This document shows, piece after piece, positions 9,641 through 64,000 of a stretch of 64,000 nucleotides of DNA. The position numbers were made by a program, and so were the translations under genes. The notes beneath the pieces are model-generated. The model was not told the DNA's origin and did not search any database. It saw only the letters and a program-made list of their open reading frames with translations. This stretch comes from Tupaia tana (Eukaryota > Chordata > Mammalia > Scandentia > Tupaiidae), in NCBI GenBank assembly GCA_026018925.1, contig JAKSZU010000009.1, forward strand, positions 74,868,041 to 74,932,040. The letters are read 5' to 3'. The number at the start of each line of letters is the position of its first letter. The first letter of the stretch is position 1.

Positions 9641-10010
9641 TTGAGATCCACACCACACTCCCATCTTTCGACCCCTGGGCCAGGATCTGGGAGGGAGGAC
9701 TGCCCCCCAGTAGTTCCAGTCCCGGGACCCCAAGCCAGACTCCCCTCTCTCAGCCAGGAATGCCCTCAGTTCATCCACACCACACTCCCATCTTTCAACC
9801 CCTGGGCCAGGGTCTTCGAGGGAGGACTGCCCCCCAGTAGTTCCAGCCAGGGAACCCAAGCCAGACTCCCCTCTTTAAGCCAGGAACGCCCTCAGTTCAT
9901 CCACAGCACACTCCCATCTTTCAACCCCTGGGCCAGGATCTTCGAGGGAGGACTGCCCCCAAGTAGTTCCAGCTCTGGGACCCCAAGCCAGACTCCCCTC
10001 TTTCAGCTAG

Positions 10011-10094
10011 GTACATTTTTTTCCGTTTTTTTTTTCTCTGTCCTGTTACCCACGTCATTCATTTGTAGATTTCTCTCTTCTGATCAACACATAG
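10011..10094 (+). other. First linker of the array: GT-AG, intron-like
   Basis: Representative 84-bp linker. It begins GTACATTTTT directly after module end CTAG (CCAG in most units) and ends ACACATAG before module start GAACGCC. Inside is a T/C-rich tract, TTTCTCTCTTCTGATC just upstream of the end, and a branch-point-like CTGAT 12 bases from the AG. The donor-like CAGGTACAT matches the mammalian consensus at the exon side and first three intron bases. Where linkers are missing, CCAG joins GAACGCC directly. Splicing is not demonstrated. Confidence 0.5.
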
Positions 10095-13000
10095 GAACGC
10101 CCTCAGTTCATCCACACCACACTCCCACCTTTCGACCCCTGGGCCAGGATCTTCAAGGGAAGACTGCCCCCCAGTAGTTCCAGCCCCGGGATCCCAAGCC
10201 AGACTCCCCTCTTTCAGCCAGGTACATTTTTTTTCCCTTTTTTTTTCCTCTGTCCTGTTACCCACGTCTTTCATTTGTAAATTTTTCTCTTCTGATCAAC
10301 ACATAGGAACGCCCTCAGTTCATTCACACCACACTCCCATTTTTCGACCCCTGGGCCAGGATCTTCGAGGAAGGATTGCCCCCCAGTAGTTCCAGCCCCA
10401 GGACCCCAACCCAGGCTCCCCTCTTTCAGCCAGGAACGCCCTCAGTTCATCTACACCACACTCCCATCTTTCGACCCCTGGGCCAGTATCTTCAAGGGAG
10501 GACTGCCTCCTAGTAGTAACAGCCCCGGGACCCCAAGCCAGACTCCGCTCTTTCAGCCAGGTACATTATTTTCCTTTTTTTTTTCTCTATCATGTTGCCC
10601 ACGTCTTTCATTTGTAAATTTCTCTCTGCTAATCAACACATAGGAACGAACTCAGTTCATCTGCACCACACTCCCATCTTTCGACCACTGGGCCAGGATT
10701 TTCGAGGGAGGACTGCCCCCCAGAAGTTCCAGGCCCCGGACCCCAAGACAGACTCCCCTCTTTCAGCCAGGTACATTTTTTTCCCTTGTTTTTTTCTGTC
10801 TTGTTACCCACGTCTTTCATTTGTAAATTTCTCTCTTCTGATCAACACATAGGAACGCCCTCAGTTCATCCACACCACACTCCCATCTTTCGACCAATGG
10901 GCCAGGATCTTCGAGGGAGGACTGCCACCCAGTAGTTCCAGCCCCGGTACCCCAAGTCAGACTCCCCTCTTTCAGCCAGGTACATTTTTTTCCCTTTCTT
11001 TTTTTCTCTGACTAGTTACACACGTCTTTCATTTGTAAATTTCTCTCTTCTGATCAACACATAGGAACGACCTAAGTTCATCCACACCAGATTCCCATCT
11101 TTTGACGACTGGGCCAGGGTCTTCGAGGGAGGACTGCCCCCCAGTAGTTCCATCCCTGGGACCCCAATCCAGACTCCCCTCTTTTAGCCAGGTATATTTT
11201 TTTCCCTTTTTTTTTCTCTGTCTTGTTACCCACGTCTTTCATTTGTAAATTTCTCTCTTCTGATCAACACATAGGAACGCCCTCAGTTCATCCACACCAC
11301 ACTCCCATCTTTCGACCCCAGGGCCAGGGTCTTCGAGGGAGGACGGCCCCCCAGTAGTTCCAGCCCTGGGACCCCAAGTCAGACACCCCTCTTTCAGCCA
11401 GGTACGTTTTTTTTACCTTTCTTTTTTCTTTGCATTGTTACCCACGCCTTACATTTGTAAATTTCTCTCTTCTGATCAACACATAGGAGCGTACTCAGTT
11501 CATCCACACCACACTCCCGTCTTTCGACACCTGGGCCAGGGTCTTCCAGGGAGGTCTGCCTCGTAGTAGTACCAGCCCTGGAAGCAAAAGCCAGACTCCC
11601 CTCTTTCAGCCAGGTACATTTTTTTCTCTCTTTTTTTTTTCTCTGTCTTGTTACCCACGCTTTTCATTTGTAAATTTCTCTCTTCTGATCAACACATAGG
11701 AACGCACTCAGTTCATCCGCACCACTATCCCAACTTTCGACCCCAGGGCCAGGGTCTTCGAGGGAGGACTGCCCCCCATAGTTCCAGCCACAGGACCCCA
11801 AGCCAGACTCCCCTCTTTCAGCCAGGTACATTTCTTTCCCTTTTTTTTTTCATTGTCTTGTTACTCACGTCTTTCATTTGTAAATTTCTCTCTTCTGATC
11901 AACACATAGGAACGCCCTTAGTTCATCCACACCACACTCCCATCTTTCACCCATGGGACAGGGTCTTCAAGGGAGGACTGCCCCACAGTAGTTAACAGCC
12001 CCGGGACCCCAAGCCAGACTCCACTCTTTTAGCCAGGTACATTTTTTTTCCCTTTCTTTTTTCTCTGTCTTGTTACCCACGCCTTTCATTTGTATATTTC
12101 TCTCTTCTGATGAACACATAGAAATGCCCTCAGTTCATCCACACCACACTCCCACTTTTCGACCTCTGGGAGAGGGTCTTCGAGGGAGGACTGACCCCCA
12201 GTAGTTCCAGCCCCAGGCACCCAAGCCAGACTCCTCTCTTTCAGCCAAGTACATTTTTTTCCCTTTTTCTTTCCTCTGACTTCTCACCCACGCCTTTCAT
12301 TTGTAAATTTCTCTCTTCTGATCAACACATAGGAACCTCCTTAGTTCATCCACACCACACTCCCATCTTCCAACCCCAAGGCCAGGGTCTTCGAGGGAGG
12401 ACTGCCCCCCAGTAGTTCCAGCCCCGGAACCCCAAGCCAGACTACCCTCTTTCAGCCAGGTACATTTTTTTCCTTTATTTTTTTCTCTGTCTTGTTACCC
12501 ACACCTTTCATTTGTAAATTTCTCTCTTCTGATCAACATATAGGAATGCCCTACGTTCATCCGCACCACACTCCCATCTTTCAACCCCTGTGCCAGGAAT
12601 TTTGAGGGAGGACTGCCCCCCAGTAGTTCCAGCCCCGGGACCCCAAGCCAGACACCCCTGTTTCAGCCAGGTACATTTTTTTTCCTTTTTTTTTTCTCTA
12701 TCTTGTTACCCAGGCCTTTCATTTGTAAATTTTTCTCTTCTGATCAACACATAGGAAAGCCCTCAGTTCATCCCCAATATACTCCCATCTTTCGACCCCT
12801 GGGTCAGGGTCTTCGAGGGAGGACTGCCCCTGAGAAGTTCCAGCCCCGGGACCCTAAGCCAGACTCCCCTCTTTCAGCCAGGTACATTTTTTTTCCTTTT
12901 TTTTTTTTCTCTGTCTTGTTACCCACGCCTTTCATTTGTTAATTTCATTCTTCTGATCAACACATAGGAACGCCCTCAGTTCATCCACACCACACTCCCA

Positions 13001-13130
13001 TCTTTTGACCCCTGGGCCAGGGTCTTCGATGGAGGACTGCCCCCCCAGTAGTTACAGCCCCAGGACCTCAAGACAGACTGCCCTCTTTCAGCCAGGTACA
13101 TTTTTTTCCCTTTTTTTTTCTCTGTCTTGT

Positions 13131-13406
13131 TTTTTTTTTTTTTTTTTGGAGAGGTTTTTTTTTTCACTATAGGGCGCGTGTGCTCGCCAGACAGACAGAG
13201 AGAGACATAGAGACAGAAAGCGAGAAATCACCCCCCAGGAGGGATGGTCACGCCACAATCCCTTCTCCTCCATTCTCCTCTCAGGATCTTGGGCACGCAC
13301 GCACATGCGCCCGGCGTGAGTTGTAAGCCACTGGGTCCGGGACGCGAACCACGGTCGACTACGTGGGAGTCCAGCAACATAGCCATTACGCTAACTGCTG
13401 GTTCCC
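13131..13406 (-). mobile_element. tRNA-derived SINE inserted in the tandem array
   Basis: Antisense long-form SINE (T run, GGAGAGG, then CACTATAGGGCGCGTGTGC, to CTAACTGCTGGTTCCC). It is flanked by a perfect 12-bp duplication of linker sequence TCTCTGTCTTGT at 13119-13130 and 13407-13418. It is the only foreign insertion I see in the 26-kb array. Confidence 0.95.
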
Positions 13407-16400
13407 TCTCTGTCTTGTTACACACGTTATTCCTTTGCAAATTTCTCCCTTCTGATCAACACATAGGAATGCCCTCAGTTCATCCACACCTTACTGCCAT
13501 CTTTCGACCCCTGGGCCATGGTCTTCGAGGGAGGACTGCCCCCCAGTAGTTCCAGTCCCGGAATCCCAAGCCAGACTACCCTCTTTCAGCCAGGTACATT
13601 TTTTTTCCTTTATTTTTTTCTCTGTCTTGTTATCCACGCCTTTCATTTGTAAATTTCTCTCTTCTGATCAACATATAGGAATGCCCTAAGTTCATCTGCA
13701 CCACACTCCCATCTTTCAACCCCTGTGCCAGGAATTTCGAGGGAGGATTGCCCCCCAGTAGTTCCAGCCCCGGGACCCCAAGCCAGATTCCCCTCTTTTA
13801 GCCAGGTACATTTTTACATTTTTGTTTTTTCTCTGTCTTCTTACACATGCCTTTCATTTCTAAATTTCTCTCTTCTGATCAACACATAGGAACCCCCTCA
13901 GTTCATCCACACCACATTCCCATCTTTCGACCCCTGGGCCAGGGTGTTCGAGGGAGGACTGCCCCCCAGTAGTTCCAGCCCCGGGACCCCTAGCCAGACT
14001 CCCCTCTTTCAGCCCGGTACATTTTTTTCCATTTTTTTTTCTCTGTCTTGTTACCCACGCCTTTCATTTGTAAATTTCTTTCTTCTGATCAACTCATAGG
14101 AATGCCCTCAGTTCATCCACACCACACTCCCATCTTTCAACCCCGGGGCCAGGATCATCGAGGGAGGAATTCCCCCCAGTGTTTCCAGCCCCGGATCCCC
14201 AAGCCAGAGTCCCCTCTTTCTGCCAGATACATTTTCTTCCATTTCTTTTTCTCAGTCTTGTTACCCAAGTCTTTCATTTGTAAATTTCTTTCTTCTAACA
14301 ACACATAGGAACGCCCTAAGTTCATGAACACCACACTCCCATCTTTCGACCCCTGGGCCAGGGTCTTCCAGGGAGGACTGCCCCCCAGTAGTTCCAGCCC
14401 CGGGACCCCAAGCCAGACACCCCTGTTTCAGCCAGGTACATTTTTTTCCTTTTTTTTTTTTCTCTATCTTGTTACCCAGGCCTTTCATGTCTAAATTTTT
14501 CTCTTCTGATCAACACATAGGAACACCCTCAGTTCATCCCCAATATACTCACATCTTTCGACCCCTGGGCCAGGGTCTTCGAGGAAGGACTGCCCCTGAG
14601 AAGTTCCAGCCCCGGGACCCTAAGCCAGACTCCCCTCTTTCAGCCAGATACATTTTTTTCCTTTTATTTTTTCTCTGTCTTGTTACCCACGCCTTTCATT
14701 TGTTAATTTCGCTCTTCTGATCAACACATAGGAATGCCCTCAGTTCATCCACACCACACTCCCATCTTTTGACCCCTGGGCCAGGGTCTTCAATGGAGGA
14801 CTGCCCCCCAGTAGTTACAGCCCCAGGACCTAAAGACAGACTGCCCTCTTTCAGCCAGGTACATTTTTTTCCCTTTTTTTCCTCTGTCTTGTTACCCACG
14901 CCTTTCATTTGTAAATTTCTCTCTTATTATCAACACATAGGAACGCCCTCAGTTCATCCCCAAAATACTCCCGATTATCGACCCCCTTGGCCAAGGTCTT
15001 CGAGGGAGGACTGCCCCCGAGAAGTTCCAGCCCCGGGACCCTAAGCAAGACTCCCCTCTATCAGCCAGGTACATTTTTTTCCCTTTTTTTTTCTCTGTCT
15101 TGTTACCCACGCCTTTCATTTGTAAATTTCTCTCTTCTGATCAACACATAGGAACGCCCTCAGTTCTTCCCCAAAATACTCCCGTTTTCCGACCCCTTGG
15201 CCAGGGTCTTCGAGGGAGGACTGCCCCCGAGAATTTCCAGCTCCGGGACCCTAAGCAAGACTCCCCTCTTTCAGCCAGGTACATTTTTATCCGTTTTTTT
15301 TTTTTTTTTTTTTTCTCTCTCTTGTTACAAACGCCTTTCTTTTATAAATTTCCCTCTTCTGACTAACACATAGGAACGCCCTCAGTTCATCCACACCACA
15401 CTCCCATCTTTCGACCCCTGGGCCAGGGTCTTCGAGGGAGGACTGTCCCCCAGTAGTTCCAGCCCAGGGACCCCATGCCAGAATCCCCTCTTACAGCCAG
15501 GTTCCTTATTTTTCCTTTTTTTTTTCTCTCTGTCATGTTACCCACGCCTTTCATTAGTAAATTTCTCTCTTCTGATCTACACATAGGATCGCCCTCAGTT
15601 CATGCACACCACACTCCCATCTTTCGACCCCTGGGCCAGGGTCTTCCAGGGAGGACTGCCCCCCAGTAGTTCCAGCCCCGGGACCCCAAGCCAGACACCC
15701 CTGTTTCAGCCAGGTACATTTTTTTTCCTTTTTCTTCTCTGTCTTGTTACCCAGACCTTTCATTTGTAAATTTTTCTCTTCTGATCAACACATAGGAACG
15801 CCCTCAGTTCATCCCCAATATACTCCCATCTTTCGACCCCTGAGCCAGGGTCTTCGAGGGAGGACTGCCCCCGAGAAGTTCCAGCCCCGCGATCCTAAGC
15901 CAGACTTCCCTCTTTCAGCCAGGTACACTTTTTTCCTTTTTTTTTTTCTCTGTCTTGTTACCCACTCCTTTCATTTGTTAATTTCTCTCTTCTGATCAAC
16001 ACATAGGAACACCCTCAGTTCATTCAAACCACACTCCCATTTTTCGACCCCTGGGCCATGGTCTTCGAGGAAGGACTGCATCCCAGTAGTTACAGCCCCG
16101 GGACCTCAAGACAGACATGCCTCTTTCAGCCAGGTACATTTTCTTCCTTTTTTTTTTTTTTCTCTGTCTTGTTACCCACGCCTTTCATTTGTACATATCT
16201 CTCTTATGATCAACACATGGGAACGCCCTCAGTTCATCGACACTGCACTCCCATCTTTCGACCCCTGGGCCAGGGTCTTCGAGGGAGGACTGCCTCCCAG
16301 TACTTCCAGCCCCGGGACCCCAAGCCAGACACCCCTGTTTCAGCCAGGTACATTTTTTTTTTCCTTTTTTTTTTCTCTATCTTGTTACCCAGGCCTTTCA

Positions 16401-19400
16401 TTTGTACATTTTTCTCTTCTGATCAACACATAGGAAAGCCCTCAGTTCATCCCCAATATACTCCCATCTTTCGACCCCTGGGCCAGGGTCTTCGAGGGAG
16501 GACTGCCCCTGAGAAGTTCCAGCCCCGAGACCCTAAGCCAGACTCCCCTCTTTCAGCCAGGTACATTTTTTTCCTTTTTTTTTTTCTCTGTCTTGTTACC
16601 CATGTCTTTCATTTGTAAATTTCTCTCTTCTGATCTACACATGGGAACGCCCTCAGTTCATCCACACTGCACTCCCATCTTTCGACCCCTGGGCCAGGGT
16701 CTTCGAGGGAGGACTGCCTCCCAGTAGTTCCAGCCCTGGGACCCCAAACCAGACACACCTCTTTCAGCCAGGTACATTTTTTTCCCTTTTTTTTTTCTCT
16801 GGCTTGTTACCCACGCCTTTTATTTGTAAATTTCTCTCTTCTGATCAACACATAGGAACGCCCTCATTTCATCCTCACCACACTCACATCTTTCGACCCC
16901 TGGGCCAGGGTCTTCGAGGGAGGACTGTCCCCCAGTAGTTCCAGCCCCGGGACCCCAAGCCAGACTCCCCTCTATCAGACAGGTACATTTTTTTCCCTTT
17001 TGTTTTCCTCTGTCTTGATACCCACGCCTTTCATTTGTAAATTTCTCTCTTCTGATCAACACATAGGAACGCCCTCAGTTCAACCACACTACACTCCCAT
17101 ATTTCGACCCTTGAGTCCAGGTCTTTGAGGGAAGACTGCCCCCCAGTAGTTCCAGCCCCGGGACCCCAAGCCAGACTCCCCTCTTTCAGCCAGGTAAAAT
17201 TATTTCCCTTTTATTTTTCTCTGTCTTGTTACCCACGTCTTTCATTTGTAAATTTCTCTCTTTTGATCAACACATAGGAACGCCCGCAGTTCATCCACAC
17301 CACACTCTCATCTTTCGACCCCTGGGCCAGGGTCTTCCTGGGAGGACTGCCCCGCAGTAGTTCCAACCCCGGGATCCCAAGCCTGACTCCCCTCTTTTGG
17401 CCAGGTACATTTTTTTCCCTTTTTTCTTTTCTCTCTCTTGTTACCCATGCCTTTCATTTGTCAATTTCTCTCTTCTGATCAACACATAGGAATGCCCTCA
17501 GTTAATCCACACCACACTCCCATCTTTCGACCCCTGGGTCAGGATCTTCGAGCGAGGAATGATCCGTGTAAGTTCCAGCCCCGGGACCCCAAGCCAGACT
17601 CCCCTATTTCAGCCAGGTACATTTTTTCCCTTTTTTTTTTCTCTGTCTTGTTACACACGCCTTTCATTTATAAATTTCTCTCTTCTGATCATCACATATG
17701 AATGGCCTCAGTCATTCCACACCACACTCCCATCTTTAGACCACAGGGCCAGGGTCTTTGAGGGAGGACTGCCCCCCAGTAGTTCCAGGCAAAGGACCCA
17801 AAGCCAGACACCCCTCTTTAGGCCAGGTATATTTTTTTCCATTTTTTTTTTCTCAGTCTTGTTACCCACACCTTTCATTTGTAAATTTCTCTCTTATGAT
17901 CAACACATAGGAACGACCTCCGTTCATCCCCAAAACACTCCCATCTTTCAACCTTTGGGCCAGGGTCTTCGAGGAGGAATGCCCCCCCAGTCGTTCCAGC
18001 CCCGGGACCCCAAGCCAGACTTCCCTCTTTCAGCCAGGTACATTTTTTTCCCTTTTTTTTTTTCTCTGTCTTGTTACCCACGCTTTTCATTTGTAAATTT
18101 CTCTCTTCTGATCAACACATAGGAACGCACTCAGTTCATCCGCACCACTATCCCAACTTTCGACCCCAGGGCCAGGGTCTTCGAGGGAGGACTGCCCCCC
18201 ATAGTTCCAGCCACAGGACCCCAAGCCAGACTCCCCTCTTTCAGCCAGGTACATTTCTTTCCCTTTTTTTTTTCATTGTCTTGTTACTCACGTCTTTCAT
18301 TTGTAAATTTCTCTCTTCTGATCAACACATAGGAACGCCCTTAGTTCATCCACACCACACTCCCATCTTTCACCCATGGGACAGGGTCTTCAAGGGAGGA
18401 CTGCCCCACAGTAGTTAACAGCCCCGGGACCCCAAGCCAGACTCCACTCTTTTAGCCAGGTACATTTTTTTTTCCCTTTCTTTTTTCTCTGTCTTGTTAC
18501 CCACGCCTTTCATTTGTATATTTCTCTCTTCTGATGAACACATAGAAATGCCCTCAGTTCATCCACACCACACTCCCATCTTTCGACCCCTGCCCAGGGT
18601 CTTCGAGGGAGGACTGCCCCACAGTAGTTCCAACCCCTGGACCCCAAGCCAGACTAACCTCTTTCAGCCAGGTACATTTTTTTCCCTTTTTTTTTTCTCT
18701 GTCTTGTTACCCACGCCTTTCATTTATAAATTTCTCTCTTCTGATCAACACATAGGAACGCCCTCAGTTCATCCACACTACACTCCCACCTTTCGACCCC
18801 TTGGCCAGGGTCTTCGAGGGAGGACTTCCCCCACAGTAGTTCCAGCCCCAGGACCCCAAGCCAGCCTCCCCTCTTTCAGCCAGGTACATTTCTTATCCTT
18901 TTTTTTTCATTGTCTTGTTACTCACGTCTTTCATTTGTAAATTTCTCTCTTCTGATCAACACATAGGAACGCCCTTAGTTCATCCACACCACACTCCCAT
19001 CTTTCACCCATGGGACAGGGTCTTCAAGGGAGGACTGCCCCACAGTAGTTAACAGCCCCGGGACCCCAAGCCAGACTCCACTCTTTTAGCCAGGTACATT
19101 TTTTTTCCCTTTCTTTTTTCTCTGTCTTGTTACCCACGCCTTTCATTTGTATATTTCTCTCTTCTGATGAACACATAGAAATGCCCTCAGTTCATCCACA
19201 CCACACTCCCACTTTTCGACCTCTGGGAGAGGGTCTTCGAGGGAGGACTGACCCCCAGTAGTTCCAGCCCCAGGCACCCAAGCCAGACTCCTCTCTTTCA
19301 GCCAAGTACATTTTTTTCCCTTTTTCTTTCCTCTGACTTCTCACCCACGCCTTTCATTTATAAATTTCACTCTTCTGATCAACACATAGGAACATCCTTA

Positions 19401-22400
19401 GTTCATCCACACCACACTCCCATCTTCCAACCCCAAGGCCAGGGTCTTCGAGGGAGGACTGCCCCCCAGTAGTTCCAGCCCCGGAACCCCAAGCCAGACT
19501 ACCCTCTTTCAGCCAGGTACATTTTTTTCCTTTATTTTTTTCTCTGTCTTGTTACCCACGCCTTTCATTTGTAAATTTCTCTCTTCTGATCAACATATAG
19601 GAATGCCCTATGTTCATCCGCACCACACTCCTATCTTTCAACCCCTGTGCCAGGAATTTCGAGGGAGGACTGCCCCCCAGTAGTTCCAGCCCCGGGACCC
19701 CAAGCCAGACTCCCCTCTATCAGACAGGTACATTTTTTTCCCTTTTGTTTTCCTCTGTCTTGATACCCACGCCTTTCATTTGTAAATTTCTCTCTTCTGA
19801 TCAACACATAGGAACGCCCTCAGTTCAACCACACTACTCTCCCATATTTCGACCCTTGAGTCCAGGTCTTTGAGGGAAGACTGCCCCCCAGTAGTTCCAG
19901 CCCCGGGACCCCAAGCCAGACTCCCCTCTTTCAGCCAGGTAAAATTATTTCCCTTTTATTTTTCTCTGTCTTGTTACCCATGTCTTTCATTTGTAAATTT
20001 CTCTCTTCTGATCAACACATAGGAACGCCCGCAGTTCATCCACACCACACTCCCATCTTTCGACCCCTGGGCCAGGGTCTTCCTGGGAGGACTGCCCCGC
20101 AGTAGTTCCAACGCCGGGATCCCAAGCCTGACTCCCCTCTTTCGGCCAGGTACATTTTTTTCCCTTTTTTCTTTTCTCTCTCTTGTTACCCACGCCTTTC
20201 ATTTGTCAATTTCTCTCTTCTGATCAACACATTGGAACGCCCTCAGTTAATCCACACCACACTCCCATCTTTTGACCCCTGGGTCAGGATCTTCGAGCGA
20301 GGAATGATCCGTGTAAGTTCCAGCCCCGGGACCCCAAGCCAGACTCTCCTATTTCAGCCAGGTACATTTTTTTCCCTTTTTTTTTTCTCTGTCTTGTTAC
20401 ACACGCCTTTCATTTGTAAATTTCTCTCTTCTGATCATCACATATGAACGGCCTCAGTCATTCCACATCACACTCCCATCTTTAGACCACAGGGCCAGGG
20501 TCTTCGAGGGAGGACTGCCCCCCAGTAGTTCCAGGCAAGGGACCCAAAGCCAGACACCCCTCTTTCAGCCAGGAATATTTTTTTCCATTATTTTTCTCAG
20601 TCTTGTTACCCACACCTTTCATTTGTAAATTTCTCTCTTAGGATCAACACATAGGAAAGACCTCCGTTCATCCCACAACACTCCCATCTTTCAACCTTTG
20701 GGCCAGGGTCTTCGAGGAGGAATGCCCCCCCAGTCGTTCCAGCCCCGGGACCTCAAGCCAGACTTCCCTCTTTCAGCCAGGTACATTTTTTTCCCTTTTT
20801 TTTTTCCTCTGTATTGTTACCCACACATCTCATTTGTAAATTTCTCTCTTCTGATCAACACATAGGAATGCCCTCAGTTCATCCACACCACACTCCCATC
20901 TTTCAACCTCTGGGCCAGGGTCTTCAAGGGAGGACTGCCCCCCTGGAGTTCCTGCCCCGGACCCCAATCCAGACTCCCCTCTTTCAGCCAGGTACATTTT
21001 TTTCCCTTTTTTTTCTCTGTCTTTTTACCCACGCCTTTCATTTGTAAATTTCTATCTTCTGATCAACACATAGGAACGTCCTCAGTTCATCCCCACCACA
21101 CTCCCATCTTTCGACCCCAGGGACAGGGTCTTCGAGGGAGGATTGCCCCCCAGTAGTTCCAGCCCCGGGACACAAAGACAGACTCCCCTCTTTCAGCCAG
21201 GTACATTTATTTCCCTTTTTTTTTTCTCTATCTTGATACCCACCCCTTTCATTAGTAAATTTCTCTCTTCTGATCAACACATAGGAACGCCCTCAGTTCA
21301 TCCACAACACACTCGAATCTTTCGACCCCTTGTCCTGGATCTTTGTGGGAGAACAGCTCCCCAGTAGTTCCAGCCCCGGAACCCAAAGCCAGACTCCCCT
21401 CTTTCAGCCAGGTTCAAGTTTTTCCCTTTCTTTTTCTCTGTCTGTTACCCACGTCTTTCATTTGTAAATTTCTCTCTTCTGATTAACACATAGGAACGCC
21501 CTCAGTTCATCCACACCACACTCCCATCTTTCGAGCCCTGGGCCAGGATCTTCGAGCGAGGACTGATCCCCAGAAGTTCCAGCCCCGGGACCCCAAGCCA
21601 GACTCCTCTATTTCTGCCAGGTACATTTTTTTCCCTTTTTTTTTCTCTGTCTTGTTACCCACGCCTTTCATTTGTAAATTTCTCTCTTTGGTTCAACACA
21701 TAGGAACGCCCTTATTTCATCCACAACACAATCCCAATTTTCGACCCCTGGGCCAGGGTCTTCCAGGGAGTACTGCCCCCCAGTTTTTCCAGCCTGAGGA
21801 CCCAAAGCCAGACACCCCTCTTTCAGCCAGGTACATTTTTTTTCCCTTTTTTTTTTCTCTGTCTTGTTACCCACGCCTTTCATTTGTAAATTTCTCTCTT
21901 CTGATCAACCCATAGGAAAGCCCTCAGTTCATCCACACCACACCCCCATCTTTCGATCCCTAGGCTAGGGTCTTCTAGGGAGGACTGCCCCCCCAGTAGT
22001 TCCAGCACCGGGATTCCAAGCCAGATTCCCCTCTTTCAGCCAGGTACATTTTTTTCTCTTTTTTTTTTTTTGTCTGTCTTGTTACCCAAGCCTTTCATTT
22101 GTTAATTTCTCTCTTCTGATCAACCGATAGGAACGCCCTCAGTTCATCCACACCACACTCCCATATTTCGACCCGTGGGCCAGGTTCTTCGAGGGAGGAC
22201 TGCCCCCAGTAGTTCCAGCCCTGGGACCCCAAGCCTGACTCCCCTCTTTCAGCCAGGTACATTTTTTTCGCTTTTTTTTTTCTCTGTCTTGTTACCCACG
22301 CCTTTCATTTGTAAATTTCTCTCTTCTGATCAACACATATGAACGCCCACAGTTCATCCACACCACACTCCCATCTTTTGAACCCTGGTCCAGGGTTTTC

Positions 22401-34400: not shown

Positions 34401-35999
34401 TTTTTTTCCTTTATTTTTTCTCTGTCTTGTTACCCACGCTTTTCATTTTTTAATTTCTCTCTTCTGATCAACAAATAGGAACGCCCTCAGTTCATCCACA
34501 CCACACTCCCATCTTTCGACCTCTGGGCCAAGGTCTTCGAGGACTGCCCCCCAGTAGTTCCAGCCCCGGGACCCCGAGCCAGACTCCCCTCTTTCAGCCA
34601 GGTACATTTTTTTTTTCCTTTTTTTTTTTCTCTGTCTCCTTACCCACGTCTTTCATTTGTAAATTTCTCTCTTCTGATCAATAGATAGGAATGCCCTCAG
34701 TTCATCAACACCACACTCCCATTTTTCGACCCCTGGGCCGGCCTGGGTCTTCGAGGGAGGACTGCCCCCCAGTAGTTCCAACCCCGAGACCCCAAGCCAG
34801 TTTCCCCTCTTTCAGCCAGGTACATTTATTTCCCTTTTTTTTTTTCTCTCTTCTGTTACCCTCGCCTTTCATTTGTAAATTTCTGTCTTCTGATCAACCC
34901 ATATTAACGCGCTAAGTTCATCCACACCACACTCCCATCTTTCAACCCTTGGGCCAGGGTCATCGAGGGAGTACTGCCCCCCAGTCGTTACAGACCCGGG
35001 ACCACAAGACAGACTGCCCTCTTTCAGAAAGGTACATTTTTTTCCCTTTTTTTTTCTCTGCCTTGTTACCCACGCCTTTCATTTGTAAATTTCTCTCTTC
35101 TGATCAACATATAGGAACGCCCTCAGTTCATCCAAACCACACTCCCATCTTTTGACCCCTGGGCCAGGGTCTTCAAGGGAGGACTGCCCCCCAGTAGTTC
35201 CAGCCCCGGGACCCCAAGCCAGACTCCCCTCTTTCAGCCAGGTACATTTTTGTCACTTTTTTTTCCCTCTGTCTTGTTACCCATGCCTTTCATTTGTAAA
35301 TTTCTCTCTTCTGATCAACACATAGGAACACCCTCAGTTCATCCACACCACACTCCCATCTTTTGACCCCTGGGCCAGGGTCTTCGAGGGAGAACTGCCC
35401 CCCAGTAGTTCTAGCCACGGGAACCCAAGCCAGACTCCCCTCTTTCAGCCAGGTATATTTTTTCCCTTTTTTCTTTTCTGTCTTATTACTCACGTCTTTC
35501 ATTTGTAAATTTCTCTCTTCTGATCAACACATAGGAACGCCCTCAGTTCATCCACACCACACTCCCATCTTTCGACCCCTGGGCCAGGGTTTTTGAGGGA
35601 GGACTGCCCCCCAGTAGTTCCAGCCCCGGGACCCCAAGCCAGATTCCCCTCTTTCAGCCAGGTACTTTTTTTTCCTTTTTTTTTTCTCTGTCTTGTTACC
35701 CACGTCTTTCATTTGTAAATTTCTCTCTTCTTATCAACACATAGGAGCACCCTCAGTTCATCCACACCACACTCCCATCTTTCGACCCCTGGGCCAGGGT
35801 GTTCGAGGGAGGCCTGCCCCCCAGTAGTTCCAGCCACAGGACCCCAACTAGACTCCCCTCTTTCAGCCAGGTACATTTTTTTCCCTTTTTTTTTTCTCTT
35901 TCTTCTTACCCACGCCTTTCATTAGTAAATTTCTCTCTTCTGATCAGCACATAGGAATGCCCTCAGTTCATCCCCACCACACTCCCACCTTTGACCCCT

Positions 36000-53137: not shown

Positions 53138-53885
53138 CCGATACACTCCAATCTTTCGACCCCTGGGCCAGGATCTTCAAGGGAGGACTGCCCCCCAGTA
53201 GTTCCAGCCCCAGGACCCCAAGACAGACCCCCCTCTTTCAGCCAGGAACGCCCTCAGTTCATCCACTCCACACTCCCATCTCTCGACCCCTGGGCCAGGA
53301 TCTTCGAGGGAGGACTGTTCCCCAGTAGTTCCAGCCCCAGGACCCCAAGACAGACCCCCCTCTTTCAGCCAGGAACGCCCTCAGTTCATCCACTCCACAC
53401 TCCCATCTCTCGACCCCTGGGCCAGGATCTTCGAGGGAGGACTGCCCACCAGTAGTTCCAGGCCTGGGACCCCAAGACAGACCCCCCTCTTTCAGCCAGG
53501 AACGCCCTCAGTTCATCCACTCCACACTCCCATCTCTCGACCCCTGGGCCAGGATCTTCGAGGGAGGACTGCCCACCAGTAGTTCCAGCCCCAAGACCCC
53601 AAGACAGACCCCCTCTTTCAGCCAGGAACGCCCTCAGTTCATCCACTCCGCACTCCCATCTTTCAACCACTGGTCCAGGATCTTCGAGGGAGGACTGCCC
53701 CCCAGTAGTTCCAGCCCCGGGACCCCAAGACAGACCCCCGTCTTTCAGCCAGGTACATTTTTTTTCTTTTTTTTTTCCTCTGGCCTGTTACCCACATCTT
53801 TCATTTGTAAATTTCTCTCTTCTGATCAACACACAGGAACGCCCTCAGTTCATCCACACCACACTCCCATCTTTCGACCCCTGGC
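53138..53885 (+). promoter_or_regulatory. L1 5'-UTR monomers, mostly without linker
   Basis: Begins inside a module (CACTCCAATCTTTCGACC). It continues as 127-bp GC modules joined directly (CAGCCAG then GAACGCC), then one linker (GTACATTTTTTTTC ... CAACACACAG, about 53753-53837) and a last partial module. That module stops at CGACCCCTGG, the same base at which the 26-kb array stops. By analogy with mouse L1 monomers this is the element's RNA polymerase II promoter region. Confidence 0.85.
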
Positions 53886-54259
53886 GAAATTGCGTGCCGT
53901 GGTAGTGCGTGGCGCGTGACTTTTTCTTTATTCTACATATTATTTTCTTCCCAGTTTCTCAATCCTCACATCCTTTATCTGCACCATCCCTGGCTGTCCA
54001 GATAGGTCTAGAATTACAATTCTGAAACATTCTAGCATTTTAAGACTCTCTAGAATCCTCCATTTCCCTGAAACACCTGTGAAGAAGGAGATACATTTCT
54101 TTGGACAACTGAAGTGAATACTTTTTCTTGGTTTACATTACTAAACACAATTGAAGATAGACTTTGGCTGTCTCCATTCCACATCAGAAAGGAAACACAC
54201 TTGCTTCTATTAGAAGAAACCTTCTCGTAAAAGGTTTTTCAAAGGGAACACATCTCCCA
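53886..54259 (+). promoter_or_regulatory. L1 non-monomeric leader
   Basis: Homologous to 36000-36376. Its first part shows TG/CA where the other copy has CG, as expected from methylation-driven decay. It contains the acceptor-like TATTTTCTTCCCAG (ending at 53954) and runs to the ORF1 start. Confidence 0.75.
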
Positions 54260-55216
54260 ATGGTTAGAAATACAAGAACCTCAGGCCTGAATAAAGCAGG
54301 AAATATGTATCCATCAAAGGAACACAGTAACTCCCTTCCTGTTCCTGAAAAAATAGAGGACGTTACCAAAATGTCCGAGATAGAGTTTAGAACATTCATG
54401 TTGACCAAGTACTATGAGCTGGAACAGAAAAGAGACAATGAATTACAGGAGATGAGAAAGTCCTTCAACGATATGAAAGAAGAAATTCTGAGGAAGAATA
54501 ATATGGAACTATTAGAGGTGAAGTCTGAAATACAGGAAATCAAAAACTCTCTTGAAAGTATTAAAAGTCGATTAGACCATGCTGAAGGTCGAATCTCTGA
54601 TGTAGAAGATAAAACTTCTGGCCTAGAGAAAACCACCAAAAAGATAGAGAAAATAACAAAAAAACATGAAGATAATATACGAGAATTACTAGATTCCATT
54701 AGACGTCCTAACGTCCGCATAATTGGTATCCCAGAAGGTGAAGAAACTAATAAGAGCATGGAAAACCTATTCCATGAAATCTTGGAAGAAAATTTCCCAA
54801 GCATAGAGAGGCACTCCAACATCCAGACCCAAGAAATACAAAGGACACCAAATAGAATCAACCCAAGAAGATCTTCCCCAAGGCATAACATAGCCAGACT
54901 GGCTAAGACCACAGATAGAGATAAGATACTAAAACTAGCATGAGAGAAACGACAAGTGACTTACAAAGGTCACCCCATCAGGCTAACACCGGACTTCTCA
55001 ATGGAAACAATGCAAGCAAGGAAAGAATGGGAAGATGTATCAAAAGCGTTAAGAGAGAAATAATTTCAACCAAGACTATTGTATCCTGCAAGATTATCCT
55101 TCATATGGGAAAAAAAGATTAAAATCTTCTCAGACAAACAAAACCTGAAAGAATTTGCCAGCACCAGGCCAGCTCTCCATGAAACCCTGAAGAAAGTACT
55201 GTTCCAGGAAAACTAA
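54260..55216 (+). pseudogene. L1 ORF1 (RNA-binding, coiled-coil) pseudogene
   Basis: The frame from the first plausible ATG (54260, MVRNTRTSGLNK) to the TAA at 55214 is 318 codons, close to the usual L1 ORF1p size. An N-terminal coiled coil occupies roughly residues 50-145 (KYYELEQKRDNELQEMRK, SLESIKSRLDHAEGRISD). The RRM-type part starts near RIIGIPEGEETNKS, followed by a C-terminal domain. Two in-frame nonsense codons break it: TGA at 54941 and TAA at 55061, so the C-terminal RNA-binding domain is lost. At neither site does the copy at 36 kb have a stop, so these are private mutations. The frame opens further upstream (54164) but with no ATG there. Confidence 0.92.
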
Positions 55217-55260
55217 AGAAGTAACAGCCAGAAACAAAATAGTAAAAGGCAACTAAGACA

Positions 55261-58200
55261 ATGGCCAACTTAAATGCCGGGACAGATCCATTAACATCAA
55301 TAATAACATTGAATGTTAATGGATTAAACTCTCCAATCAAGAGACACAGACTGGCTGAATGGGCTAAAAAACAAAAACCCTCTACCTGTTGCCTACAGGA
55401 AACCCACTTCATGGATAAAGATATACATAGACTGAAAGTGAAGGGTTGGAAAAAGATTTTCCATGCAAATGGGAACCAAAAAAGAGGTGGAGTCGCAATA
55501 CTGATCTCTGACAAAATAGGCTTTAAAACAAAAACTGTTCGAAGAGACAAAGAAGGGCACTATATTGTAGCAAAAGGATCAATCAATCAAGAAGATATAA
55601 CGCTTATTAATATCTATGCGCCCAACACAGGAGCACCCAAATATGTAAAGGAAAGACTGCTAGATCTAAAAAGGGAGATAGACTGCAACACACTAATTGT
55701 TGGAGACCTCAACACTGCACTATCCCCCCTGGATAGATCATCTAGACAAAAAATAGGTAAAGAGATAAAAGATCTAAATGATATCATAAATCAAATGGAC
55801 TTAACAGACATCTATAGAACTTTCTATCCTAAAACCTGAAGATACACTTTTTTTCTCACAGCTACATGGAACATTCTCGAAGACTGACCACATCATTGGG
55901 CACAAAGCAAGCCTCTACAGATTCAAAAGCATAGAAACTATACCCAGCACCTTCACCAACCATGATGGAATTAAACTTGAGTTTAATTTCAAGAGAAATC
56001 CTCAAAAATACTCAAATATATGGAAACTTAATAACCTACTCCTGAATGACTCCACAACTACTGAAGATATAAAGAGTGAAATCAAAAGGTTCATGGAAGC
56101 CAATGACAATGAGGACACGAGTTTCCATAATCTTTGGGACACTGCTAAAGCAGTCAAAAGAGGGAAGTTCATAGCAATTAGTGCACATAAGAGGAGCATG
56201 GAAAGAAGGCAAATGGATCACCTAACATCATGCCTCACAGAATTGGAAAAGCAACAGCAAAAAGATCCAAAAAACTCCAGGAGAAAGGAAATAATAAAGA
56301 TACGAGCAGAAATAAATGAAATAGAAAATAAATGAACTATACAGAAAATAAAAGAAAGTAAAAGCTGGTTCTTTGAAAACATAAACAAAATTGATACACC
56401 ACTAGCGAGACTTATTAAGAAGAGCGAAAAGAACCAGGTGAATCAGATCTGCAACGAAGCAGGCAAAATAGCAACAGACATAGTAGAAATAAAAAACATT
56501 ATTAGAGGATACTATGAACATCTGTATGCCAAGAAACAAGATAATTTGGATGAGATGGACAAATTTCGGGACAGGTTTAATCTACCTAGATTGAGCCAGG
56601 AGGATATAGAAAGTCTGAATAGGTCCATAACAAGCCAGGAGATCAAATCAGTTATAAATAACCTCCCAACAAAGAAAAGCCCTGGCCCTGATGGATTCAC
56701 CTCTGAATTCTACAAAACTTTCAAAGAAGAGTTAACCCCCATTCTGCTCAAGTTATTTCTAAATATCCAAAAGGGTGAATCTCTCCCTAATTCATTATAC
56801 GAAGCCTCTATCACCCTTATCCTTAAAACTGATAAGGACAGGACAAGGAAGGAAAACTATAGACCAATATCCCTGATGAATATAGACGCGAAGATTCTCA
56901 ACAAGGTACTAGCAAATCGTATACAACAACTTATCAAAAAGATTATACATCATGATCAGGTAGGCTTTATCCCAGGAATGCAAGGTTGGTTCAACATACG
57001 CAAAACCATAAATGTAATACACCATATTAATAGGAAGAAAGATAAAAACCATATGGTCATATCAATTGAGGCAGAAAAAGCATTTGATAAGATACAACAT
57101 CCCTTCATGATCAAGACTCTCAGCAAAATGGGCATAGAAGGGCCATTTCTCAACACAATAAAAGCTATCTATGAAAAACCCATAGCGAACATCATCCTCA
57201 ATGGAGAAAAGCTGAAAGCTTTTCCACTAAAAACGGGTACAAGACAAGGATGTCCACTTTCTCCACTCCTCTTCAATATAGTACTAGAAGTCTTGGCCAT
57301 TGCAATCAGAAAAGAGGAAAAAATAAAAGGCATTCAAATAGGAAAAGAAGAGGTGAAACTCTATTTGCAGATGACATGATTGTATACATAGAAGACCCAA
57401 TGGTTTCCATAAAAAAAATTCTGGAAGTAATACATGAATACAGTAACGTTGCAGGATACAAAATTAATATCCAGAAATCTATAGCCTTTCTGTATACAAA
57501 CAACAGGCAGACTGAGATGGAGCTGAAAAAAGTTGTTCCATTTACTATAGCCACAAAAAGTATAAGATACTTAGGGATAAATCTAACTAAAGAAGTTAAA
57601 GTCCTCCATAAGGAAAACTATGAGAAGATAAAAAAAAGAATTTGAAAATGACACAAAAAAGTGGAAGGACATCCCATGTTCCTGGATTGGAAGAATTAAT
57701 ATAATCAAAATGGCAATTTTACCCAAATTAATCTACCTATTTAATGCAATGATAGACACATTCTTCACAGATCTAGGAAAGACAATCATAACATTTGTTT
57801 GGAATCATAAAAGACCCCGTATTGCCAAAGCAGTTTTGCACAAGAAGAATGGAGTGGGCGGCATCTCACTCCCTGACCCAAAAATATACTACAAAGCTGT
57901 GGTAATCAAAACAGCATGGTACTGGCACAGGAACAGACAGGTGGACCAATGGAACAGAATAGAGTCCCCAGAAATGAATGCTCAAACATACAGCCAACTG
58001 ATTTTTGACAAGGGGCACCAGTCAATCCTGTGGGAAAAGGATAACCTCTTCAGCAAATGGTGCTGGCAAAACTGGATCTCCACTTGCAGAAAGATGAATC
58101 TGAACCCCTACCTCTCACCTCTGACAAAAATAAAGACAAGGTGTATTAAAGATCTAAACCTAAGACCTCAAACTATAAAACTGCTCCTGGAAAACACCAG

Positions 58201-59095
58201 GGAAACTCTGGGAGACATTGGGGTAGGGAAAAACTTCTTAAATAAGACTCCCAATGCACAGTCTATGATCCCTAAAATAGACAAGTGGGATTACATCAGA
58301 CTAAGAAGTTTCTGCATGGCAAAAGACACAGTGATTAGTGTGAACAGACAGCCCTCAGAATGGGAAAATATTTTTGTAAACTATGCATCAGACGAGGGAC
58401 TGATAACCAGAATCCACAAGGAACTCAAGCGACTCTTCCAGAAAAAGACAATCAATCCTATTAAAAGATGGGAGAATGAGTTGAAAAAACCACTTTCTAA
58501 AGATGACATACTAATAGCTAAAAGGCATATGAAAAAATGCTCAACATCCCTCATTGTAAGAGGAATGCAGATCAAAACAACAATGAGATACCACCTAACC
58601 CCGTCAGAATGTCTAAGATTAAAAAAAACAAAAAATGATAAGTGCTGGAGGGGGTGTGGTGAAAAGGGAACTCTCTTACGCTGCTGGTGGGACTGTAAAT
58701 TGGTACAACCACTGTGGAGAACAATTTGGAGATTCCTCCAAAATCTACAAATAGAACTACCATATGATCCAGCAATCCCACTCCTTGGTATCTACCCGAA
58801 GGACAGAAGAATACTTAATCGAAAAAGTGCTTGCACATCGATGTTTATTGCGGCACTTTTCACGATTGCTAAGTCATGGAAACAACCTAAATGCCCACGA
58901 ACTGATGAATGGTTAGAAAAACTGTGGCACATATACTCAATGGAATACTATTCATCCATAAAAAACAACAAATCCCTTACTTTTGAAAGGAAGTGGATGA
59001 ATATGGAAGACTTAACTGTTGAGTGAAGCAAGCCATGCTATGAAGGAGAGACATTGTATGTCCCCACTTAATATATACCGAGTGTCTGCACTCTA
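55261..59095 (+). pseudogene. L1 ORF2 (endonuclease/reverse transcriptase) pseudogene
   Basis: Spans about 3.8 kb, the normal ORF2 size, starting 44 bp after ORF1. The endonuclease domain (55261-55839) has NVNGLNSP, CLQETHFMD and GDLNTALSPLDR, then a TGA. The middle part is open at 56093-56335. The reverse transcriptase (56438-57379) has [50 protein letters not shown] and [17 protein letters not shown] frameshift falls exactly at the catalytic box: FADDM is present at about 57364 in the next frame. The last open part (57710-59026) contains the thumb, the Cys-rich motif [14 protein letters not shown] (His usually found before CWW is Arg here) and [17 protein letters not shown], with a final one-base insertion near 59012. 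Non-functional. Confidence 0.93.
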
Positions 59096-59165
59096 AATGT
59101 GTATATATATATATATATATATATACATATATATATTTGTATATATATGTATATTTATATTTTTG
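59096..59165. repeat. (TA)n-rich repeat in L1 3' UTR
   Basis: TATATA/CATATA runs at the same position as in the other copy (38157-38232), so this is part of the L1 3' UTR and not an independent microsatellite. Confidence 0.85.
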
Positions 59166-61125
59166 AAACCATTCTGCTTCTGTTGTTACAGAGTTTTAAA
59201 ATTATACAAAATTATAAGACATATTTTGAACATTATCTTTAAAATTCAGTATTTTGAGATCTTGAAAGTTGTTTGTAAACTGTCAAGAATTATGGAGTAT
59301 GGATCTTTCGACCCCTGGGCCAGGATCTCCGAGGGAGGACTGCCCCCAGTAGTTCCAGCCCCGGGACCCCCAGGCCAGAGCCCCCTCTTTCAGCCAGGAA
59401 CGCCCTCAGTTCATCCACACCACACCCCTATCTTTCGACCCCTGGGCCAGGATCTCCGAGGGAGGACTGCCCCCAGTAGTTCCAGACCCGGGACCCCCAG
59501 GCCAGAGCCCCCTCTTTCAGCCAGGAACGCCCTCAGTTTATCCACACCACACCCCCATCTTTCGACCCCTGGGCCAGGATCTCCGAGGGAGGACTGCCCC
59601 CAGTAGTTCCAGCCCCGGGACCCCCAGGCCAGAGCCCCCTCTTTCAGCCAGGAACGCCCTCAGTTCATCCACATCACACCCCCATCTTTCGACCCCTGGG
59701 CCAGGATCTCCGAGGGAGGACTGCCCCCAGTAGTTCCAGCCCCGGGACCCCCAGGCCAGAGCCCCCTCTTTCAGCCAGGAACGCCCTCAGTTCATCCACA
59801 CCACACCCCCATCTTTCGACCCCTGGGCCAGGATCTCCGAGGGAGGACTGCCCCCAGTAGTTCCAGCCCCGGGACCCCCAGGCCAGAGCCCCCTCTTTCA
59901 ACCAGGAACGCCCTCAGTTCATCCACACCACACCCCCATCTTTCGACCCCTGGGCCAGGATCTCCGAGGGAGGACTGCCCCCAGTAGTTCCGGCCCCGGG
60001 ACCGCCAAGCCAGAGCCCCCTCTTTCAGCCAGGAACGCCCTCAGTTCATCCACACCACACCTCCATCTTTCGACCCCTGGGCCAGGATCTCCGAGGGAGG
60101 ACTGCCCCCAGTAGTTCCATCCCCGGGACCCCCAGGCCAGAGCCCCCTCTTTCAGCCAGGAACGCCCTCAGTTCATCCACACCACACCCCCATCTTTCAA
60201 CCCCTGGGCCAGGATCTCCGAGGGAGGACTGCCCCCAGTAGTTCCAGCCCCGGGACCCCCAGGCCAGAGCCCCCTCTTTCAACCAGGAACGCCCTCAGTT
60301 CATCCACACCACACCCCCATCTTTCGACCCCTGGGCCAGGATCTCCGAGGGAGGACTGCCCCCAGTAGTTCCAGCCCCGGGACCCCCAAGCCAGAGCCCC
60401 CTCTTTCAGCCAGGAACGCCCTCAGTTCATCCATACCACACCCCCATCTTTCGACCCCTGGGCCAGGATCTCCGAGGGAGGACTGCCCCCAGTACATTTT
60501 TTTTCCTTTTTTTTTTCTTTCTCTGTCCTGTTATCCACATCTTTCAATTGTAAATTTCTCTCTTCTGATCAACACACAGAAACGCCCTCAGTTCATCCAC
60601 ACCACACCCCCATCTTTCGAACCCTGGGCCAGGATCTCCGAGGGAGGACTGCGCCCAGTATTTCCAGCCCCGGGACCCCCAGGCCAGAGCCCCCTCATTC
60701 AGCCATGAACGCCCTCAGTTCATCCACACCACACCCCCATATTTCGACCCCTGGGACAGGATCTCCGAAGGAGGACTGCCCCCAGTAGTTCCAGCCCGGG
60801 GACCCCCAGGCCAGAGCTCCCTCTTTCAGCCAGGAACGCCCTCAGTTCATCCACACCACACCCCCAACTTTCGACCCCTGGGCCAGGATCTCCGAGGGAG
60901 GACTGCCCCCAGTACAATTTTTTCCTTTTTTTTTTCTTTCTCTGTCCTGTTATCGACATCTTTCAATTGTAAATTTCTCTCTTCTGATCAACACACAGGA
61001 ACGCCCACAGTTCATCCACACCACACCCCCATCTTTCGACCCCTGGGCCAGGATCACCGAGGGAGGACTGCCCCCAGTAGTTCCAGCCCCGGGACCCCCA
61101 GGCCAGAGCCCCCTCTTTCAGCCAG

Positions 61126-61216
61126 GTACATTTTTTTTTCCTTTTTTTTTTTTCCTTCTCTGTCCTGTTATCCACATCTTTCAATTGTAAATTTCTCTCT
61201 TCTGATCAACACACAG
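61126..61216 (+). other. Complete GT-AG linker in the third array
   Basis: 91-bp linker from GTACATTTTTTTTT after GCCAG to CAACACACAG before GAACG. Its T/C tract and TCTCTCTTCTGATC precede the terminal CAG. It is a clean example of the intron-like boundaries. Confidence 0.5.
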
Positions 61217-61801
61217 GAACGGCCTCAGTTCATCCACACCACAGCCCCATCTTTCGACCCCTGGGCCAGGATCTCCGAGGGAGGACTGCCCCCAGTAGTT
61301 CCAGCCCTGGGACCCCCAGGCCAGAGCCCCCTCTTTCAGCCAGGAACGCCCTCAGTTCATCCACACCACACCCCCATCTTTCGACCCCTGGGCCAGGATC
61401 TCTGAGGGAACACTGCCCCCAGTAGTTCCAGCCCCGGGACCCCCAGGCCAGAGCCCCCTCTTTCAGCCAGGAACACCCTCAGTTCATCCACACCACACCC
61501 CCATCTTTCGACCCCTGGGCCAGGATCTCCGAGGGAGGACTGCCCCCAGTAGTTCCAGCCCCGGGACCCCCAAGCCAGAGCCCCCTCTTTCAGCCAGGAA
61601 CGCCCTCAGTTCATCCACACCACACCCCCATCTTTCGACCCCTGGGCCAGGATCTCCGAAGGAGGACTGCCCCAGTACATTTTTTTTCCTTTTTTTTTTT
61701 CTTTCTCTGTCCTGTTATCCACATCTTTCAATTGTAAATTTCTCTCTTCTGATCAACACACAGGAACGCCCTCAGTTCATCCACACCACACCCCCATCTT
61801 T

Positions 61802-61843
61802 CGACCCCTGGGCCAGGATCTCCGACCCCTGGGCCAGGATCTC
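61802..61843 (+). repeat. 21-bp perfect tandem duplication within a module
   Basis: CGACCCCTGGGCCAGGATCTC occurs twice in succession. It is the only such duplication seen in this array. Confidence 0.95.
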
Positions 61844-64000
61844 CGAGGGAGGACTGCCCCCAGTAGTTCCAGCCCCGGGACTCCCAGGCCAGAGCCCCCT
61901 CTTTCAGCCAGGAACGCCCTCAGTTCATCCACACCACACCCCCATCTTTCGACCCCTGGGCCAGGATCTCCGAGGGAGGAATGCCCCCAGTAGTTCCAGC
62001 CCCGGGACCCCCAGGCCAGAGCTCCCTCTTTCAGCCAGGAACGCCCTCAGTTCTTCCACACCACACCCCCATCTTTCGACCCCTGGGCCAGGATCTCCGA
62101 GGGAGGACTGCCCCGAGTAGTTCTAGCCCCGGGACCCCCAAGCCAGAGCCCCCTCTTTCAGCCAGGAACGCCCTCAGTTCATCCACACCACACCCCCATC
62201 TTTCGACCCCTGGGCCAGGATCTCCGAGGGAGGACTGCCCCCAGTACATTTTTTTTTCCTTTTTTTTTTCTTTCTCTGTCCTGTTATCCACATCTTTCAA
62301 TTGTAAATTTCTCTCTTCTGATCAACACACAGGAACGCCCTCAGTTCATCCACACCACACCCCCATCTTTCGACCCCTGGGCCAGGATCTCCGAGGGAGG
62401 ACTGCCCCCAGTATTTCCAGCCCCGGGACCCCCAGGCCAGAGCCCTCTCTTTCAGCTAGGAACGCCCTCAGTTCATCCACACCACACCCCCATCTTTCGA
62501 CCCCTATGCCAGGATCTCCGAGGGAGGACTGCCCCAAGTAGTTCTAGCCCCGGGACCCCCAAGCCAGAGCCCCCTCTTTCAGCCAGGAACGCCCTCAGTT
62601 CATCCACACCACACCCCCATCTTTCGACCCCTGGGCCAGTATCTCCGAGGGAGGACTGCCCCCAGTACATTTTTTTTCCTTTTTTTTTTTCTTTCTCTGT
62701 CCTGTTATCCACATCTTTCAATTGTAAATTTCTCTCTTCTGATCAACACACAGGAACGCCCTCAGTTCATCCACACCACACCCCCATCTTTCGACCTCTG
62801 GGCCAGGATCTCTGAGGGAGGACTGCCCCCAGTATTTCCAGCCCCGGGACCCCCAGGCCAGAGCCCCCTCTTTCAGCCAGGAACGCCCTCAGTTCATCCA
62901 CACCACACCCCCATCTTTCGACCCCTGTGCCAGGATCTCCGAGGGAGGACTGCCCCGAGTAGTTCTAGCCCCGGGACCCCCAAGCCAGAGCCCCCTCTTT
63001 CAGCCAGGAACGCCCTCAGTTCATCCACAACACACCCCCATCTTTCGACCCCTGGGCCAGGATCTCCGAGGGAGGACTGCCCCCAGTACATTTTTTTTCC
63101 TTTTTTTTTTCTTTCTCTGTCCTGTTATCCACATCTTTCAATTGTAAATTTCTCTCTTCTGATCAACACACAGGAACGCCCTCAGTTCATCCACACCACA
63201 CCCCCATCTTTCAACCCCTGGGCCAGGATCTCCGAGGGAGGACTGCCCCCAGTAGTTCCAGCCCCGGGACACCCAGGCCAGAGCCCCCTCTTTCAGCCAG
63301 GAACGCCCTCAGTTCATCCACACCACACCCCCATCTTTCGACCCCTGGGCCAGCATCTCCGAGGGAGGACTGCCCCCAGTAGTTCCAGCCCTGGGACCCC
63401 CAGGCCAGAGCCCCCTCTTTCAGCCAGGAACGCCCTCATTTCATCCACACCACACCCCCATCTTTCGACCCCTGGGCCAGGATCTCCGAGGGAGGACTGC
63501 CCCCAGTAGTTCCAGCCCCGGGACCCCCAGGCCAGAGCCCCCTCTTTCAGCCAGGAACGCCCTCAGTTCATCCACACCACACCCCCATCTTTCGACCCCT
63601 GGGCCAGGATCTCCGAGGGAGGACTGCCCAAAGTACATTTTTTTTCCTTTTTTTTTTCTTTCTCTGTCCTGTTATCCACATCTTTCAATTGTAAATTTCT
63701 CTCTTCTGATCAACACACAGGAACGCCCACAGTTCATCCACACCACACCCCCATCTTTCGACCCCTGGGCCAGGATCTCCGAGGGAGGACTGCCCCCAGT
63801 AGTTCCAGCCCCGGGACCCCCAGGCCAGAGCCCCCTCTTTCAGCCAGGTACATTTTTTTTCCTTTTTTTTTTTTCCTTCTCTGTCCTGTTATCCACATCT
63901 TTCAATTGTAAATTTCTCTCTTCTGATCAACACACAGGAACGGCCTCAGTTCATCCACACCACAGCCCCATCTTTCGACCCCTGGGCCAGGATCTCCGAG

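Follow-up and report, generated by a model that had tools for sequence, protein, structure and literature searches.

Organisation of the L1 leader arrays

The stretch analysed here, a 64-kb window on contig JAKSZU010000009.1 of Tupaia tana, carries three tandem arrays on the plus strand, each situated 5′ of the body of an L1 retrotransposon (9646-35999, 53143-53884 and 59303 onward). Their repeat unit is a 127-bp module, GAACGCC...CAGCCAG, which occurs with or without a linker of the form GTACATTTT...CACA(C/T)AG, and our subject is the likely splicing of this leader and the return of the spliced RNA to the genome. We combined the window with exact-word counts across the 2.95-Gb genome, so that all statements below concern the DNA sequence of one genome.

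Array 1 (9646..35999), in which 127 module hits are spread over about 26 kb, is far longer than the arrays of the other copies that we sampled. It contains 119 linkers after a full module, whereas modules abut directly at seven places (near 9758, 9884, 10434, 24589, 24716, 32667 and 32794), and it precedes L1a, an internally deleted L1. About 3 kb are missing inside the L1a tether and body (36000..38443), and the tether carries the acceptor TTATTTTCTTCCCAG|T. Array 2 (53143..53884) consists of a partial module, four full linker-free modules, one terminal linker (53753-53836) and a 48-bp partial module. The module/linker border of this array (53750..53755) exemplifies the donor context CAG|GTA, whose use as a donor is suggested by joined copies elsewhere in the genome. 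It is followed by the tether, ORF1 (open reading frame 1) and the ORF2 region of L1b (53885..59301), with the tether acceptor TTCTTCCCAG|T near 53954. Array 3 (59303..64000) starts with a linker-free block up to about 60.49 kb, is mixed beyond and continues past the window, where it ends in a full module, a linker, a 48-bp partial module and then the tether of L1c. The layout of mouse-type monomers, in which a tether connects the tandem repeats with ORF1, is thus found in arrays 1-3 and also in 28 of 30 unspliced copies sampled elsewhere in the genome (every fifth of 100 listed places, giving 20, plus 10 further ones).

The borders of module and linker, as proposed in an earlier note on this DNA, are precise. 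CAGCCAG|GTACATTTT with up to two mismatches occurs 108 times in the window (0.04 expected from shuffles), CAACACAYAG|GAACG 114 times (0.07 expected), one of these at 2315 outside the arrays, and CAGCCAG|GAACGCC 42 times (0.23 expected), seven of the 42 being linker ends that match with two mismatches. The linker-free stretches at 53.2-53.75 and 59.3-60.49 kb lie where the note had placed them, the seven linker-free junctions of array 1 come in addition, and the CTGAT does stand 12 nt before the AG. The proposed linker size of 84-91 bp holds roughly, with a measured range of 76-95 bp after a full module. The GT...AG form in a CAG|G context applies to most linkers; between 60492 and 63720 in array 3, seven of the nine window linkers are preceded by a module cut after 78 bp (CCCCCAGTACATTT), so that the donor context reads CCA|GTACAT instead of CAG|GTACAT. 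This truncated form, which lacks 49 bp with a GTA overlap, was multiplied by tandem duplication inside array 3, and all 11 linkers after a truncated module in our junction census come from this array. The 49-bp gap could itself be written as GT...AG but would make a very short intron, and therefore GT-AG borders alone prove little. An apparent association of broken donors with kept linkers in array 3 was not used, as it rests on tandem duplicates.

Joined L1 copies and their acceptors

From the copies described in this section, we consider it about 90% probable that L1 RNA was spliced from a donor within the repeating leader unit, CAG|GTACAT, and then retrotransposed. The first such copy, here called C66 after its contig, was met through the order of a search listing and not by a random draw. 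Its array consists of eleven modules and no linker; the first module is truncated on the 5′ side, and the last CAGCCAG runs directly into TTTCCCAATCC. The joined base is the one that follows TTATTTTCTTCCCAG in the window L1s and stands after TTCTTCCCAG in the tether, so that the final linker, the partial module behind it and the first part of the tether are missing. The copy has a target duplication of 16 bp and ends in an A-rich tail, both read by eye.

Genome-wide, the exact C66-type join occurs nine times and its reversed control not at all, and the unspliced form of the same acceptor has 121 exact matches, so that joined copies make up 9 of 130. The nine copies differ throughout in array start and flanks. 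Eight of them, the nine being those examined for this feature among the 26 joined copies described below, show a target-site duplication together with an A-rich tail; seven of these, C66 aside, carry tails and duplications of 10-21 bp, and the duplication of L027 was read by eye. Eight of the nine arrays are free of linkers, and L027 keeps two with intact ends.

To find further right-hand edges, we searched the genome for CCCCCTCTTTCAGCCAG, the end of the module, with A, C or T as the next base. This census gave 180 matches, of which 100 places were listed; many of these clustered on few contigs and were left out, and 22 isolated ones were picked by eye. Seventeen of the 22 are joins of CAGCCAG to seven further tether sites, namely ATAGGTC (one copy), ACTCTCT (two), AATCC (one), TTCCCTG (three), ATAGACT (six), ACTT(C/T)GG (three) and AAAGGAAAC (one). 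The other five places comprise variants of module-module junctions (L068, L077, L078), a rearranged array (L080) and unrelated sequence (L071). We thus directly observe 26 joined copies with eight acceptors and a single left edge, CAGCCAG, at exactly the point where the GT of the linker would follow. Both numbers are lower bounds, and the census detects only joins intact through CAGCCAG, the frequency of other left edges being outside its reach.

All eight acceptor sites are located before the presumed start of ORF1, whose ATG is our own assignment, and each is preceded by AG in the younger copies L1c and C66. In L1a, the ATAGACT site is preceded by CG instead. AG takes up 5.6% of the positions in the acceptor stretch, where 8 of 29 AG sites are used. 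The tether acceptor TTATTTTCTTCCCAG, to which the C66-type copies are joined, is the strongest, with 11.1-11.6 in a position matrix for splice sites, and two sites with a weak tract, which together account for nine copies, are located about 12 and 16 nt past the branch-like TACTAAAC. The insertions are separate, as no pair among the 26 copies has a 14-mer in common within 120 bp of 5′ flank. They fall into at least four module subfamilies, typed from a few marker positions. According to their tethers, L031 of the nine strongest-acceptor copies groups with L1b, L030 is intermediate and the others go with L1c. Every joined copy retains at least one module and most retain two or more. Given a single left edge, AG at the eight right edges and many separate insertions, we take the donor to be real in the relevant sense and infer splicing of the RNA as the cause of the joins.

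Linker-free junctions inside the arrays

A second question is whether the internal linkers are removed in the same way. For this, we read all junctions in the window arrays, in a satellite on contig C66, in the 26 joined copies and in the 28 unspliced copies with arrays. The satellite (C66:1-53600, L009-L014) is a long minus-strand tandem of modules and linkers with 485 hits, so that the leader repeat of L1 also exists as satellite DNA, and the clustered census hits on other contigs suggest more satellites of this kind.

Among 230 module-module junctions, 229 lie exactly at CAG|GAACG, and none of the 365 linkers after a full module is partial. This exactness is the opposite of the many partial linkers which the earlier note would have taken as a sign of random loss, although the junctions are not independent because arrays spread by duplication, and 96 of the exact linker-free ones sit in the C66 satellite. 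The single other junction, found in the minus-strand copy L053 around base 1513 after reorientation of the locus, joins CAGCCAG to the position after GGGCCAG inside the next module; it is again AG|G, with a 5-base overlap (GCCAG), and could reflect an alternative acceptor or a deletion at this overlap. Linker ends in array 1 begin with GT in 111 and finish with AG in 101 of 119 cases, and this retention matches the general divergence, with no extra constraint on GT or AG seen in this array. The L1 copies that carry arrays 2 and 3 have 53 linkers preceded by a full module; 51 of these begin with GT, all 53 end in AG and 49 have the full CAG|GT.

The splice scores, all from the above matrix and compared with shuffled monomers, do not by themselves decide the matter. 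The linker donor reaches 5.45 of 12.6 and is the top-scoring GT of the plus strand. Concerning the linker acceptor, the outcome went against the expectation of the earlier note, as its score of 3.47-4.63 is equalled or beaten by 91-97% of the shuffles, and the module end outscores the linker AG as an acceptor. Judged as a candidate spliceosomal intron, the internal linker has the proper ends and is lost exactly, and fails to show splice scores better than chance.

A terminal linker stands before the partial module in 27 of the 28 sampled unspliced arrays; in L041, only its end is visible, and in L098 the partial module is too short to score. L107 has lost its last linker and kept the tether with the strong acceptor; the similarly built L057 and L059 retain the linker. 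An internal linker is kept in 2 of 25 joined copies versus 8 of the 21 unspliced ones that have an internal junction (p = 0.028), a difference that would fit removal of linkers from spliced RNA and that an upstream donor, by skipping all that lies behind it, would equally produce, and in 10 of 24 unspliced ones when the window arrays are added (p = 0.008). In one copy of each group (L053 and L086), the counted linker is only a 3′ part at the 5′ end of the array.

Taken together, the exact junctions, the absence of partial linkers, L107 and the lower number of internal linkers in joined copies count for linker splicing. We lean slightly towards the reading that internal linkers would also be spliced out through their own weak acceptor, creating linker-free junctions of which many are now inherited as DNA.

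Weighing splicing against DNA rearrangement

Several observations weigh against splicing, some concerning the terminal joins and others the internal linkers as introns. At the terminal joins, module and acceptor ends overlap by 2-4 bases (AG to CCAG), so that a deletion mediated by the overlap is possible for single cases; the target duplication of one of the nine strongest-acceptor copies (L028/L036) is ambiguous, and the donor is only moderate, with 14% of shuffled monomers scoring as well. For the internal linkers, the weak acceptor has to be added, as well as the CAGG present at both linker ends, through which DNA recombination could yield an identical clean junction. Furthermore, L027 is joined terminally and still has its two intact linkers, the last linker is retained in almost every unspliced array sampled, and linker-free arrays, including both linker-free stretches of arrays 2 and 3, occur in copies that retain the terminal linker and the strong acceptor. 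Finally, the linker-free context is bound to module lineages: in the satellite, several module variants that occur in front of linkers are missing, or almost so, in front of modules, and some columns of the linker-free blocks in array 1 differ from its remaining modules, so that in these two arrays the linker-free state is inherited together with the module.

The best-surviving alternative builds on these points. It holds that linker-free junctions arise in DNA by CAGG-CAGG recombination or slippage and spread by tandem duplication, with only the terminal intron being spliced, and we regard it as quite possible, with somewhat less than even odds. The CAGG repeats, the unspliced linker-free copies, L027 and the 96 exact junctions of a single satellite, where as in array 1 the linker-free context tracks module variants, all fit this explanation. 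It accounts less well for 0 partial linkers among 365 and a single other junction among 230, despite the presence of other short repeats and with the exceptional L053 also being AG|G, nor does it readily explain why L107 lost only its last linker. A module tree, though poorly resolved, implies that the context changed from linker to no linker or back at least seven times for the 65 modules internal to L1 copies, and 19 times over 158 modules with the linker modules of array 1 thinned to one in three. In the window itself, the stretches that lack linkers belong to copies keeping the terminal linker and may therefore be inherited as DNA. The earlier note had suggested that these stretches could be retrotransposed spliced RNA, an idea that is supported for copies elsewhere in the genome and less so for the two stretches that it named.

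It is very improbable that linker-free modules are ancestral and that the linker was inserted later with a CAGG duplication; the CAGG repeat does flank the linker, but L1a with the most divergent tether (26-35 differences) has an array in which nearly all units contain it (119 to 7), and the terminal linker is present in almost every unspliced copy sampled. About as improbable is an origin of the terminal joins by DNA deletions or by the copying of one deleted master element, for which the overlaps and the tether variant common to L025, L026 and L029, which may descend from a single spliced parent, could be cited, but against which stand eight right-hand sites with one left-hand site, the several subfamilies and varied array lengths, and the TTCCCTG site, where AT precedes in L1a and L1b and an AG is confined to the younger L1c and C66; the three users of this site have module types of the younger subfamilies.

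Based on retrotransposition of spliced RNA, the following course can be proposed. The leader ends in the last linker (27 of 28 sampled arrays), the partial module and the tether before ORF1, and its modules would probably act as the promoter. Every full module with a linker following would supply the donor CAG|GTACAT, which in a minority of transcripts would be spliced to one of the eight AG acceptors of the tether. The shortened RNA would retain modules and ORFs and give rise, upon retrotransposition, to linker-poor copies. There is an even chance that the leader as a whole consists of exon-sized promoter modules and mini-introns, with internal linkers being removed via exon definition and the terminal intron only sometimes. 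Exon definition would explain the removal of internal linkers while the terminal intron, beside a very long last exon, usually stays. Of the mini-exon and mini-intron leader imagined in the earlier note, the donor side stands up well, and a routine use of the linker's own AG is only slightly more likely than not.

Comparison with spliced L1 copies in human and mouse

The process proposed here is the one named SpIRE (spliced integrated retrotransposed element) in human L1 and also reported for mouse monomer-bearing L1, so that the remark of the earlier note that it knew of no such L1 needs qualifying; what differs is the donor within the repeating unit, with modules and ORFs remaining. About 2% of full-length human L1PA1-6 are reported as SpIREs (131 of 6,609); part of the promoter is lost in them, and they have been called dead ends (PMC5860796). 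In human as here, one donor in the 5′ untranslated region is used with several downstream AG acceptors, and the product is retrotransposed with duplications and a tail (PMC5860796). The marks of such elements, namely a GT donor and an AG acceptor in the unspliced relatives as well as a target-site duplication with an A-rich tail, are found here for the 26 copies with their eight acceptors and in eight of the nine strongest-acceptor copies, respectively. The human frequency of about 2% compares with 9 of 130 exact matches here for one acceptor (PMC5860796). Unlike in human SpIREs, the donor is part of a repeating unit of module and linker, the eight acceptors lie upstream of the presumed ORF1 and joined copies keep promoter-like modules (PMC5860796).

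For the mouse element L1spa, donors were predicted in two monomers and acceptors in the first monomer and the tether, and 22 genomic copies may derive from such splicing (Belancio et al. 2006, cited in PMC9022269). The likeness to our copies lies in the organisation, with tandem monomers and a tether (PMC9022269). The mouse donors are called cryptic and belong to two monomers of one element, in contrast to the CAG|GT that recurs in nearly all linkers of the L1 copies here (PMC9022269). In mouse L1, ORF1 is preceded by tandem leader repeats, each about 200 bp long, and among 2382 potentially active elements the longest array has 28 monomers (PMC2176070). In comparison, the unit described here is two-part with an optional linker, and array 1 reaches 127 module hits (PMC2176070).

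With modules and ORFs left in place, a spliced copy might remain active, and the promoter array could be moulded by splicing, for which one genome offers many natural test cases. If the mini-intron reading is true, retrotransposition would convert linker arrays into linker-free arrays that still bear promoter modules, and splicing would be part of array evolution and not a dead end. According to published work, HUSH represses long intronless transcripts, and a very short intron gave no protection (PMC8770142); to connect the leader splicing with HUSH would be speculation.

Further observations in the window

Rfam at gathering thresholds gave no match within the window, and a 23-base word of the module had no match in viral contigs. 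The internal deletion of L1a (window 37766) was considered as a splice and rejected, since its borders share AA and do not follow GT-AG. An insertion resembling a short interspersed element interrupts one of the linkers in array 1 (13132-13406), and similar sequence occurs upstream of the array near 9290-9556. At 59291-59303, the 3′ end of L1b passes directly into array 3, and the tail found in L1a, L1c and C66 is absent there.

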